From positions 23,871 through 87,807 of the forward strand of contig NZ_LYUZ01000158.1 in the NCBI RefSeq assembly GCF_001679925.1: a stretch of DNA of 63,937 nt. Reading direction: 5' to 3'. Shown piece after piece: positions 29,827-34,794 of the stretch. The notes under the pieces are model-generated. The model saw nothing but the letters and a program-made list of their open reading frames with translations. It was not told the origin of the DNA and ran no database searches. Position 1 is the first letter of the stretch. The number at the start of each line of letters is the position of its first letter. A program made the position numbers and the translations under genes. Source of the DNA: Leisingera sp. JC1. Lineage in GTDB: Bacteria; Pseudomonadota; Alphaproteobacteria; Rhodobacterales; Rhodobacteraceae.

Positions 29827-30966
29827 CTATTGGAGCGCTTTGACAAAAGCCCCAATGGCTTTGACAACCGATTGAACGCTTTCGGTTTGCGCCGTGAAGG
29901 TGACGACTGTTGCCCCAGCGGTCCATTTTGCGCCGGCTTTCGCCAATTCCTTGGTTCCCTCGCGGATCATGCCGTCCGCAACGGACCCGCAGTAGGCCGC
30001 CATGCGCAGGGAAATCTCCCAAAGAGTCTTGGCGATCTTTTCCAGCAGCGACGGGGAGGGCGACGGTTTCGCGATCTCCTCCTCCAGTTCCTCAACCTGT
30101 TTCCAGATCAGCGCAAGGTCGGTCTGCAAGGCCCGCACCGCAGCATCCTCCAGCGGCGGCCCGCCATTGTCTCCGATCAGAGCGGCTGCAGGAGTGCGTT
30201 CAACTGCCGCCAGCTGTTCCTTGAGGCGGGCGACTTCCTGCTCCAGTTCGAAATGGCGGCGGATGCGCTCGATTTCGGCGGCGACGGCTTCGGGGCCAGC
30301 GTCCCAAATGGCATCGTCGATCAGTGCTACTTGGTGCTGGAGTTCCCAGTCTAACGGTCTGCCGTCTAGAAGGCCCTTGAGCCACTCTGTCCAAAAGGAC
30401 CAGTCATTGTCTGTCGCCTCAAGGAAACCAAGGAGTTTCACAATATCAGTTTGAATGTGCGGGGCTGGAGCACGCCAAAGCGGAATTTCGAACAGGCTTT
30501 GGGTGCCTTCAAGACTTGCTACCAATTCGATGTCATCTTTAAGGTCTCCTAGCTCAACAATATTGCGTATAGACGCAGGCCGTACGAATGTGGAAGCTAC
30601 TATCCTAGAGTGTTTATCAACGCCATTGATGGGAGTGGCAAGTTCATAGATCGTGCCATCTTCCAGAATTGTAACGTCGGTTCCCACGGAGGGGCGAGTT
30701 AAGCTGCAAACCACTTCGTCGTCAGAGAAATCCCAATGCCAAGAAGTTTCGCTCGTTGTGTGAACTCTTGTGCCGATGCTCTCCAGACTGATATCCAACA
30801 GCCCACGGAAGAAGTCTAAAAGGTACTCAGTGGACAGGAACGGAGGGTCGTCCGCAGCCAGGTACAAGCCTCGCATGAATATTCGTGTAGAAACTGCGGT
30901 TAAGAACCGTGCAGGTAAGTCAGGTAGTGCGGCAATCTCTCTACGATAATCGTGGTTCACGTCCAT
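29827..30966 (-). CDS. Accessory protein of unknown function with W/GPE and [10 protein letters not shown] motifs
   Basis: A 379-residue protein not recognised as a named family. Residues about 187-225 ([20 protein letters not shown], then [12 protein letters not shown]) form a pattern I associate with uncharacterised alphaproteobacterial proteins. A coiled-coil stretch follows (about 225-250), then [11 protein letters not shown] (about 262-272), a second coiled coil, and a C-terminal region with a hydrophobic segment (about 320-379). The DNA encoding the first half is AT-richer (27 of 60 G+C in 30481-30540) than the second half (40 of 60 in 29941-30000), so the gene looks mosaic. It starts only 46 bases from lepA, divergently. 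Confidence 0.7.
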
Positions 30967-31012: not shown

Positions 31013-32827
31013 ATGACTGACCTCGCTCACATCCGCAATTTCTCCATCGTCGCCCATATCGACCATGGCAAATCCACCCTCGCTGACCGGCTCATCCAGG
31101 AGACCGGAACGGTGAAGGACCGCGATATGAAGGAGCAGCTGCTCGACGCCATGGACATCGAGCGCGAGCGCGGGATCACCATCAAGGCCAACACCGTGCG
31201 CATCGACTACACCGCGCAGAACGGCGAGACCTATGTGCTGAACCTGATCGACACCCCCGGCCACGTCGACTTTGCCTATGAGGTCTCCCGCTCCATGCGC
31301 GCGGTTGAAGGCTCGCTGCTGGTCGTGGACTCGACCCAAGGGGTGGAGGCGCAGACGCTGGCCAACGTCTACCAGGCGATTGATGCGGATCATGAGATCG
31401 TTCCCGTCCTGAACAAGATCGACCTGCCCGCATCGGACTGCGACCGGGTGGCGGAGCAGATCGAGGATGTGATCGGCATCGACGCCACCGGCGCCATTCA
31501 GGTCTCGGCCAAGACCGGCCAGGGCATCCGCGAAACGCTGGAGGCGATCGTCCAGCATCTGCCCGCGCCGCAGGGCACCCGGGACGCGCCGCTGAAGGCG
31601 ATGCTGGTGGACTCCTGGTACGACAGCTACCTCGGCGTGATCGTTCTGGTCCGCATCATGGACGGCGTCCTGAAGAAAGGCATGCGCGTCAAGTTCATGT
31701 CGAACAACACCCTGCACCACGTTGACCGCATCGGCGTGTTCCGCCCCGCCATGCAGGTGGTGGATGAGCTGGGGCCGGGCGAGATCGGCTTCCTCACCGC
31801 CTCGATCAAGCAGGTGCGCGACACCCGCGTCGGCGACACCATCACCAACGACCGCAACGGCACCGAAAAAGCGCTGCCGGGCTTCAAACCCGCGCAGCCG
31901 GTGGTGTTCTGCGGCTTGTTCCCGGTTGATTCCGCCGAATTCGAGGACCTGCGCGACGCCATCGACAAGCTGGCCCTGAACGACGCCTCCTTCAGCTTCG
32001 AAATGGAAACCTCCGCCGCCCTCGGCTTCGGCTTCCGCTGCGGCTTCCTCGGCCTGTTGCACCTGGAGGTGATCCGCGACCGGATCGAACGCGAATACAA
32101 CATCGAGCTGATCACCACCGCGCCGAGCGTGATCTACCACGTCTATATGAAGGGCAAGGACAACGTGCCCGGCGAGATGATCGAGCTGCACAACCCCGCC
32201 GACATGCCCGACCCCTCCAAGGTCGACCACATCCAGGAGCCGCGCATCAAGGCGACCATCCTGGTGCCGGACGAATACCTCGGCGACGTGCTGAAGCTCT
32301 GCCAGGACCGCCGCGGCATCCAGATGGACCTGTCCTACGCCGGCTCCCGCGCCATGGTGGTCTATGACCTGCCGCTGAACGAGGTGGTGTTCGACTTCTA
32401 CGACCGCCTGAAATCGGTGACCAAGGGCTATGCCTCCTTCGACTACCAGATGACCGGCTACCGCCAGGACAACCTGGTCAAGATGTCGGTGCTGGTGAAT
32501 GACGAGCCGGTCGATGCGCTCTCCACCATGGTCCACCGCGACCGCGCCGAGATGCGCGGCCGGGCGATGTGTGAGAAGCTGAAAGAGCTGATCCCGCGCC
32601 ACATGTTCAAGATCCCGATCCAGGCCGCCATCGGCGGCAAGGTGATCGCCCGCGAGACCCTCTCCGCCCTGCGCAAGGACGTGACCGCCAAGTGCTACGG
32701 CGGCGACGCGACGCGGAAGCGGAAACTGCTGGACAAGCAAAAAGCGGGCAAGAAGAAGATGCGTCAGTTCGGCAAGGTGGACATCCCGCAGGAGGCATTC
32801 ATCTCGGCGCTCAAGATGGACTCGTGA
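31013..32827 (+). CDS. lepA: Elongation factor 4 (LepA GTPase)
   Basis: Ribosome-associated translational GTPase that back-translocates or assists initiation under stress. The 604-residue protein has the P-loop [10 protein letters not shown] near residues 13-22, switch elements [16 protein letters not shown] and the NKIDLP specificity motif, and the LepA C-terminal domain ending in a Lys-rich stretch ([18 protein letters not shown]). The ATG at 31013 gives the conserved [19 protein letters not shown] opening; an earlier in-frame ATG at 30977 has no support. Core-like G+C contrasts with its low-G+C neighbour downstream. Confidence 0.98.
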
Positions 32828-32854: not shown

Positions 32855-32884
32855 AAAAGGTGGAGTTAAGTCTCCACCTTTTTT
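32855..32884 (+). terminator. lepA terminator
   Basis: AAAAGGTGGAG-TTAAGT-CTCCACCTTTT with a longer T run; marks the downstream edge of lepA before the AT-rich accessory operon. Confidence 0.93.
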
Positions 32885-32918: not shown

Positions 32919-33749
32919 ATGTCCAACAGGTCCAATTTCGACGTCTACAACCAACCAACATCCATTTCAATCGCAGAGATGCACCTTTGGGCGCCAGAGC
33001 AAGGCACGAGCGCTGACAATTTCCCCGTTGAACTTGATGTTGAGTTTTTTAAAGAAGTTGTGAAAACTCAAAAAACGCACTTGGATGTTTGGGCGGCAGA
33101 AGCGGAAGTTAAAATTACCATCAGCGGTGGATCTGTTGTAAGGGGATCGAGGTACGGCGAAAAAACCTTAACGCAAGGAGAAACTTTAAAAATTGAGCTA
33201 AGTGATATTCGCTCACAAAAGAAAGCCAGCAGTGCAAGTTTGAGAGCTAAGGTGGGTGGCGTAATCGGTGGAGGTTCGAAAGTTGAGTCAGGAATTGATT
33301 TTGGGCTAGGAGGCTCTGTATCCATTGAGAGTGAGGGTAAAGGGCAGCTGACCAGCGAGAAAACCCTGCAGAGGGTCGTTGCGAGACCGCAGGGAAGGTG
33401 GCAGATCTTGGAGCCAACACCGCCCGGTATACTCGATGGAAAGTATCTAGGATTGGTTAGGTTAACTAACGGTGAGGAGGTTTTCGTCCCTCTCTGCCAA
33501 GTTATGTCTTCTGGAAAAGTTGTTCTTATAAGAGTGTGGTTGCGGATTCCACGCCGCTCTCTGAAGGTGCGGTTGGGAAACGAAAACGACGATGCTTCCT
33601 TGTCGCGAAACAAGGAAATAATCGTTCAAGAGTTAGTTCGCAGGGCGAAAGTAGAAGGCCAATCCTTGGTGGATGGGGAGCAAATTCAAGGAACTAGTGA
33701 CTATGTGGACGTCGGATTCGCCGAAATCAAAGCGGAGTACCAAGATTGA
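32919..33749 (+). CDS. Unknown protein with Gly/Ser-rich central segment, first gene of an AT-rich operon
   Basis: A 276-residue protein of no family I can name. Residues 1-100 look like a beta-rich domain (VKITISGGSVVRGSRYGEKT in the middle). Residues about 104-143 are small-residue-rich and alternating (KVGGVIGGGSKVESGIDFGL, GGSVSIESEG), reminiscent of amphipathic hairpins, followed by a conserved-looking RPQGRWQILEPTPPG and a basic C-terminal domain. There is no signal peptide. G+C is low (25 of 60 in 33001-33060). The ribosome site before ATG 32919 is poor (AAGGA abuts it), so the start is uncertain. It overlaps the next gene by four bases (TTGA). Confidence 0.75.
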   Translation: MSNRSNFDVYNQPTSISIAEMHLWAPEQGTSADNFPVELDVEFFKEVVKTQKTHLDVWAAEAEVKITISGGSVVRGSRYGEKTLTQGETLKIELSDIRSQKKASSASLRAKVGGVIGGGSKVESGIDFGLGGSVSIESEGKGQLTSEKTLQRVVARPQGRWQILEPTPPGILDGKYLGLVRLTNGEEVFVPLCQVMSSGKVVLIRVWLRIPRRSLKVRLGNENDDASLSRNKEIIVQELVRRAKVEGQSLVDGEQIQGTSDYVDVGFAEIKAEYQD

Positions 33750-34534
33750 AAGTTGATACACGCTCTGAGGAAGCAATTGATGCCGTTGCTACGTCACCTG
33801 ATGACCGATTTGATGTTCTCGTGACATTGTCCGGGTTAAACCCTGAAAGGGATCTTCGGGAAGCTGATTTAAGCGGCGCAGATTTTAGAAAATCTGAACT
33901 CACGGGCTTTGACTTTTCTTTCGCTGATTTGAGAGGTTGCACTTGGGATACGCAGTCACTTAAAACCCTAAAGAATTTTCGCTATTCTTTACGTGGTTCA
34001 GGTTTTACTTCTGCAGTTTTTGATCTCGCGTCGTGCCTAGACTCGGTGAGCACTAAAAGTCGTTGGTATGAAAGGCTTGAAAGCTTTGATGAGTTGCTGC
34101 GAGTTTGCGGGCTCGTCGACGTCGTGCTTGAAGAATTTTCTGACAAAGGTCGTTTTGACAAAAGCATAGTTTTCAAGATTTTTGCTTTGACTTTAATGGT
34201 TGCGGGCTACCTTGAGCACCCAAAGCCGATCTCAATCGTGCGCCGCTGCCTGTCGACGAAAAATAAACGCCTGACGGCTCCGAGTAAGTGTAGGCTTCTC
34301 TATTATTTGTTTACGGCACAAGAGGGGCTAAAGGCATATCACCCTAGGCTTCGCGTCCCAGGTGAAGTACGATCCATGGCCCTTTATGAATTGCTGGCGG
34401 ACTTCCTACAGGAGCAGCCAGAGATTTGGGACTTGGAGCATGGGATTGGGAATTTTGCGACAAAACCTTGGTTGAAAGGCTTTGATGCCAGAAAGAGGGG
34501 GTACTTAATGGAGGCGGGTTACGACCTCCTGTGA
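33746..34534 (+). CDS. Pentapeptide-repeat protein, second gene of the AT-rich operon
   Basis: A 262-residue protein starting at TTG, overlapping the preceding stop, hence coupled. Residues about 37-68 form six pentapeptide-type units (READL SGADF RKSEL TGFDF-like), too short for a long quadrilateral helix. The rest (about residues 105-262) is a predominantly helical domain of unknown type (LTLMVAGYLEHPKPISIVRR, YELLADFLQEQPEIWDLEHG). No signal peptide. Codon use is strongly AT-shifted (20 of 60 G+C in 33961-34020), indicating acquisition from elsewhere. Partnering with the 276-residue protein is inferred from coupling. Confidence 0.75.
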   Translation: MKVDTRSEEAIDAVATSPDDRFDVLVTLSGLNPERDLREADLSGADFRKSELTGFDFSFADLRGCTWDTQSLKTLKNFRYSLRGSGFTSAVFDLASCLDSVSTKSRWYERLESFDELLRVCGLVDVVLEEFSDKGRFDKSIVFKIFALTLMVAGYLEHPKPISIVRRCLSTKNKRLTAPSKCRLLYYLFTAQEGLKAYHPRLRVPGEVRSMALYELLADFLQEQPEIWDLEHGIGNFATKPWLKGFDARKRGYLMEAGYDLL

Positions 34535-34794
34535 GGTTAAGTGATTGATTCACATCCCGCCTACAAGGTCCGGGTTCTGCCTTGTGTGTGCTGATTGAAC
34601 TCTTCTTGCCTCGGGCTCTAGGAACAATTTGCGTGGTTAGGACCTTTTTTACCCTGGAGTGCAGGCAGCCCTTTCCTCCAGCCCCGCCCCCATGCGCCAC
34701 TCTCCGCCCATCCGCGGCCTCTCCGCACCAACCCGCTGAAAACCCACCCGTTCCATGCTATTCTCCGCCCCGTTCATCTGGGGAGGAGTACACC

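Follow-up and report, generated by a model that had tools for sequence, protein, structure and literature searches.

An overlapping gene pair after lepA in Leisingera sp. JC1 as a candidate mobile conflict module

A stretch of 63,937 nucleotides (nt) from Leisingera sp. JC1 (contig NZ_LYUZ01000158.1), hereafter the window, carries after lepA two overlapping genes, which we call P1 and P2. The pair is coupled, foreign in composition, patchily distributed and divergent, and it occurs in variable slots and on a plasmid. We give a probability of about one half to the following reading: the two genes form a two-component conflict module, rare, mobile and coupled in translation, which travels as hotspot cargo and most likely acts against phages by abortive infection. 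The analysis defines this pair, and no family model in Pfam, NCBIfam, PHROGs or PADLOC matches its first protein above the cutoff. It also points to two hotspots of gene exchange next to translation genes, one after lepA and the other in the S10 ribosomal operon, between rplW and rplB. The accessory genes at both hotspots differ among related genomes and are mostly unnamed. Should the pair have a defence role, it would appear to be a new defence module.

The P1–P2 pair and its relatives

32919..33749, + strand: P1, an ATG-start open reading frame (ORF) of 276 amino acids (aa), beta-rich, found in front of P2.
33746..34534, + strand: P2, a TTG-start ORF of 262 aa with pentapeptide repeats and a helical C-terminal part, modelled with AlphaFold2 (AF2).

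Both ORFs were confirmed as a first-pass annotation had described them, with the start of P2 overlapping the stop of P1 by 4 nt (TTGA). The low G+C values given there (20/60 at 33961-34020 and 25/60 at 33001-33060) were recomputed and matched; lepA has a mean of 38/60 per 60 nt, and the lowest-G+C stretches of 1600 nt in the whole window start at 32721-32821. The G+C content at third codon positions (GC3) is 0.48 for P1, 0.47 for P2 and 0.91 for lepA.

Used alone as a query, P1 found no relative in single-sequence searches; its family was uncovered because the N-terminal module of P2 led to relatives. The search with P2 gave matches in 28 of 390 genomes of the order (E value up to 0.01, own genome included), and the best of these have residues 3-71 in common, a region that covers the helix pair and the repeats. 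We read 14 of the 27 loci outside the own genome, the other 13 being weaker matches, none of them in a P1-positive genome. A P1-like gene lies just upstream of P2 in 11 of the 14 (248-262 aa; a 210-aa piece in L053), and in L051 P2 is without a P1 match. Two loci were left out of the alignments, L056, which has a different pentapeptide protein, and L057, which has no P1-like neighbour. Profiles were built from the other members, 11 P1 and 12 P2 proteins. The window P1 reached 41.8 bits with the first profile (8.0 for the best of 5000 shuffles) and the window P2 reached 65.3 bits with the second (best shuffle, 7.7). Identity of these P1 proteins to the window P1 is 15-22%, and the window copy sits on a long branch, its place in the trees being unsure.

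The P1 profile applied to the order genomes, built including the 12 known members, was positive in 12 of 390 (own included), which are exactly the carriers of the pair, and in all 12 P2 stands behind P1, truncated in one. In the class sample it was positive in 1 of 385 genomes, the own one. A thirteenth pair lies on a plasmid of Agrobacterium tumefaciens, annotated as 'hypothetical protein' and 'pentapeptide repeat-containing protein'. As all 13 pairs overlap, by 1-14 nt, translational coupling of P1 and P2 is suggested. Co-occurrence in other genomes had been proposed as a check: P1 was always accompanied by P2, and P2 was found alone once (L051). Together with a GC3 far from that of lepA and the variability of the site, this 12/12 co-occurrence agrees with the earlier description of an acquired two-component accessory system.

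Three types of disruption were observed, once each. P1 is followed by a truncated P2 in L050 (genome G733), where transposase-like ORFs (by eye) adjoin the P2 homology, which stops at about residue 125-132; P2 is kept and P1 is split around transposase-like ORFs in L053 (genome G626); and P2 stands alone in L051 (genome G674).

Two other identities for the pair were considered and rejected, a housekeeping gene (P1 was not found in 378 of the 390 order genomes) and a self-mobile element (no recombinase lies within the pair). We know of no described system with a P1–P2 pair. A literature search of open-licence papers returned no description of it, and a search on pentapeptide repeats combined with abortive infection returned nothing.

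Gene-swap hotspots beside translation genes

The first of the hotspots lies after lepA. The window aligns with 19 of 20 same-genus genomes at lepA and at the next conserved gene, but not in the DNA that separates them; for L074, no right edge of the slot was found. This agrees with the earlier claim of an insertion after lepA. An AT-rich ORF (44-53% G+C, at least 200 aa, chosen by length) occupies the slot in 15 of the 20, and these ORFs are mostly unrelated. The slots of L060, L070 and L076 are short (611, 203 and 500 nt), and that of L072 holds GC-richer, transposase-like DNA (by eye). BLAST comparison of the 15 slot proteins at E values up to 1e-3 joined only L065 and L067, leaving 14 kinds, or 13 if the DUF3800 proteins of L063 and L066 are counted as one. 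Pfam matches at E values up to 0.01 were obtained for seven of the 15 (DUF4145, DUF7946, DUF4238, DUF3800 twice, DUF4062, and an AAA match below the cutoff). PADLOC candidates among them are PDC-S59 (L073, E 1.7e-13) and PDC-S06 (L059, 6e-6, matching the model end only); a Cas8b match in L066 (E 0.0026) is probably due to chance. At the lepA spot, the window pair is confined to one of the genus's 21 genomes; genome G002 has a pair elsewhere.

In several of these slots, not all, a GC-rich palindromic repeat of about 90 nt flanks the cargo on both sides (for example in L059, L061, L064, L066, L068, L075 and L077; also at G001:C2:265089-265189), and the near-empty slot L060 has one copy. Copies of the repeat are scattered through every one of the genus's 21 genomes, with 11-39 matches in each when at most 40 candidates per genome were scored. 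It could be a cassette boundary or a recombination site.

Across the order, the pair was found at several other places; the gene names lepA, rplW and rplB were assigned by eye. In two other genera (L044 and L052) it lies directly after lepA and faces it, so that 3 of the 12 order-genome pairs are at lepA. It is located between rplW and rplB of the ribosomal S10 operon in L047, after EttA in L050 and 0.8 kb before bL25 in L046. Six of the 12 pairs thus adjoin translation genes (lepA three times, rplW/rplB, bL25 at 0.8 kb, and EttA). In L045 the pair is in a prophage-like terminase/portal block, recognised by eye (a PDB search gave no match), and in L049 it follows a resolvase gene. This gene, of the gamma-delta/Tn3 type, overlaps the ORF of the pair (L049:7356-9030) and is a possible clue to how P1–P2 moves.

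Three genomes of one genus (L047, L106 and L107) all differ in the genes that fill the rplW–rplB gap: the pair in L047, a SocA_Panacea gene with a second unknown gene in the sister genome G807, and DUF1304, SpoIIAA-like and one unknown gene in the sister G341. Genome G807 also has a PIN-domain gene (PIN_12, E 1.5e-16; G+C 0.47) among the S10-operon genes upstream of rplD (L107:1961-2995), perhaps another accessory insertion beside ribosomal genes.

The gene contents of this gap bear on two alternatives. In the first, which the first-pass annotation had considered possible, P1–P2 is a toxin–antitoxin or toxin–immunity pair, one protein poisoning the cell and the other neutralising it. The two small overlapping genes fit this idea, and so does an antitoxin-like SocA_Panacea gene in the equivalent slot of a sister genome. 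However, whichever protein is taken as the toxin, one of L050, L053 and L051 contradicts the assignment, unless the fragments still work, and a plain toxin–immunity pair is weakened because P1 with a truncated P2, P2 with a split P1, and P2 alone all occur. As for SocA/Panacea pairs themselves, one fills the gap in G807 where its sister has P1–P2, but no domain common to both was found, and the natural disruptions argue against an antidote relation. We consider this alternative quite unlikely. In the second, the pair has a non-defence accessory function (stress, surface or regulatory) and rides in the hotspots, which is consistent with the DUF1304 and SpoIIAA-like genes that the slots also carry; the position of 6 of the 12 pairs beside translation genes could hint at growth control. 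The rarity, divergence and plasmid carriage of the pair fit conflict systems better, without excluding other cargo, and a non-defence role seems to us unlikely.

The two proteins and their possible function

33851..33940, + strand: six pentapeptide units of P2 (residues 36-65), following a conserved pair of helices (residues 5-15 and 22-29).
33129..33374, + strand: P1 loop (residues 71-152), Gly/Ser/Ala-rich and poorly conserved, between the conserved G70 and V153.

The six pentapeptide units had been read from the sequence of P2, and residues 36-65 indeed match PF00805 above its curated cutoff (28 bits versus 20.2, E 1.6e-6); weaker matches are to other pentapeptide or unnamed models. The AF2 model has the helix pair and one small pentapeptide coil, with a block predicted local distance difference test score (pLDDT) of 86-92 over residues 11-60. 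The helical tail was modelled at low confidence and gave weak solenoid-like matches alone, so the earlier expression 'novel helical domain' is fair so far. The family comprises a short form of 227-262 aa (139 aa in the truncated L050) and a long form of 375-424 aa, and the long-form plasmid protein (P0002) has weak matches to HEAT models. The repeat is common to P2 and the pentapeptide repeat proteins (PF00805; HetL, Alr5209, Qnr, MfpA), and 9 of 13 P2 members weakly match NF052603 penta_Alr5209. P2 stays far below the NCBIfam cutoff (24.7 versus 125 bits). Unlike full-length repeat proteins, however, P2 has about six units in an N-terminal helix-pair module, followed by the helical tail. It does not match the gyrase-protecting DNA mimics of the Qnr/MfpA type, scoring 12.8-12.9 bits with two Qnr models whose cutoffs are 425-460, and its repeats are confined to residues 36-65 of 262.

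The first-pass annotation placed P1 in no recognised family, and this was borne out by the four family libraries named above and by the PDB, where the sequence search gave nothing below E 0.2 and the P1-family profile found no chain at E values up to 10. Two assignments were rejected: a lambda-tail or peptidoglycan-binding family (E 0.11, below the cutoff) and DUF2002, matched by 1 of 13 P1 members (E 0.0012). The AF2 model, built from 12 sequences (mean pLDDT 57.6), is beta-rich with a C-terminal helix and a last strand; pLDDT is below 50 at residues 78-150, with block values of 26-41 over residues 81-150. In the 12-row alignment, G70, V153, W161 and L182 are invariant. Between the first two of these, the loop has 69-83 residues across the family, 30-46% of them Gly/Ala/Ser/Thr, with poor conservation.

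A Gly/Ser-rich alternating segment had been pointed out in this region. Such a segment is present, and in the window protein the mean period-2 hydropathy alternation over the whole loop (residues 71-152) exceeds that of shuffles (p 0.002). This alternation is not diagnostic, because the maximum-window statistic gives no excess (p 0.13) and the N-terminal beta part of P1 likewise alternates (p 0.014). To regard residues 71-152 as a candidate membrane hairpin is speculative.

Such a hairpin is the core of a special case of the conflict module, in which P1 would be an intracellular beta-barrel pore former with an alpha-hemolysin-like fold and one prestem hairpin in the Gly/Ser loop, restrained or triggered by P2, and its opening would kill the infected cell. 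Like alpha-hemolysin and leukocidin, P1 is beta-rich with a variable mid-protein loop, and its low-confidence model weakly resembles the fold of that class. In contrast to them, it has no sequence match (no leukocidin/alpha-hemolysin Pfam match in 13 members at E values up to 10, although HMMER filters drop most weak matches) and no signal peptide apparent by eye, and the model is too weak to decide. This boldest reading, P1 as an intracellular beta-pore former, is weakly supported, and we hold it to be distinctly improbable. More doubtful still is its extension to a new class of cytosolic abortive-infection pore formers, in which the fast-evolving Gly/Ser/Ala hairpin of a hemolysin-like P1 would enter the membrane of its own cell from the inner side, with an infection-sensing pentapeptide-solenoid P2 as the gate. 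If P1 were a pore former, bacteria would have in it a new means of killing infected cells.

The reading that we favour, a mobile conflict module, is more general about mechanism. P1 and P2 would act together, P2 as a scaffold or sensor that binds through its pentapeptide coil and helical tail, and P1, probably cytosolic, beta-rich and with a hypervariable Gly/Ser loop, as its partner or effector. Activity would require both proteins, and therefore neither would be merely the antidote of the other. The co-occurrence, the overlaps, the patchiness, the foreign composition and the divergence point to such a module, and so do other occupants of such slots, namely SocA_Panacea, the PDC-S59/PDC-S06 relatives, DUF3800, DUF4238, DUF4062 and DUF4145. 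One source describes pentapeptide and HEAT repeats as domains that provide scaffolds or superstructures in conflict systems, and in the nucleoside triphosphate (NTP)-dependent systems (vWA, TRADD-N) these modules belong to multi-gene operons (PMC7159879). Unlike the systems described there, P1–P2 is a pair without an NTPase, protease or vWA gene.

Several observations weigh against the favoured reading. No PADLOC model matches the window P1 or P2 at E values up to 1 (of five relatives scanned, P0002 alone was matched, by HEAT-ARM_XIII, E 0.0047), and no defence island was seen around the P1–P2 loci, where few neighbours were scanned. Hotspot cargo can be of another nature, as the DUF1304 and SpoIIAA-like genes in the rplW–rplB slot of G341 illustrate, and P2 alone in L051 does not fit a requirement for both proteins unless it is a remnant. 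P1–P2 would be mobile two-gene conflict cargo outside any named system.

Features flanking the pair

32855..32882, + strand: intrinsic-terminator-like hairpin with a T run, between the lepA stop and the P1 start.
34549..34600, strand unassigned: tentative degraded copy of the GC-rich repeat of the genus, which in relatives marks the right edge of the cargo slot, from local alignments, position and orientation.

The hairpin is weak evidence because terminator-like hairpins occur at chance level (two found, this one included, versus 3.6 on average in shuffles; the number is not significant). When the segment 34549..34600 was locally aligned with the right flanks of eight relatives, L063 alone exceeded the best of 200 shuffles (22.0 versus 20.0), L060 tied with its shuffles (22.5) and the other six were below. 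A degraded repeat copy is thus possible, its basis beyond the L063 alignment being position and orientation.

On the other side of lepA, a 379-aa ORF (29827-30966, minus strand) lies in a stretch of lower G+C (0.54). It has nothing above the cutoff in the family libraries, and part of it matches 2 of 20 relatives (L058 and L065); given these matches, the side upstream of lepA may also be variable.
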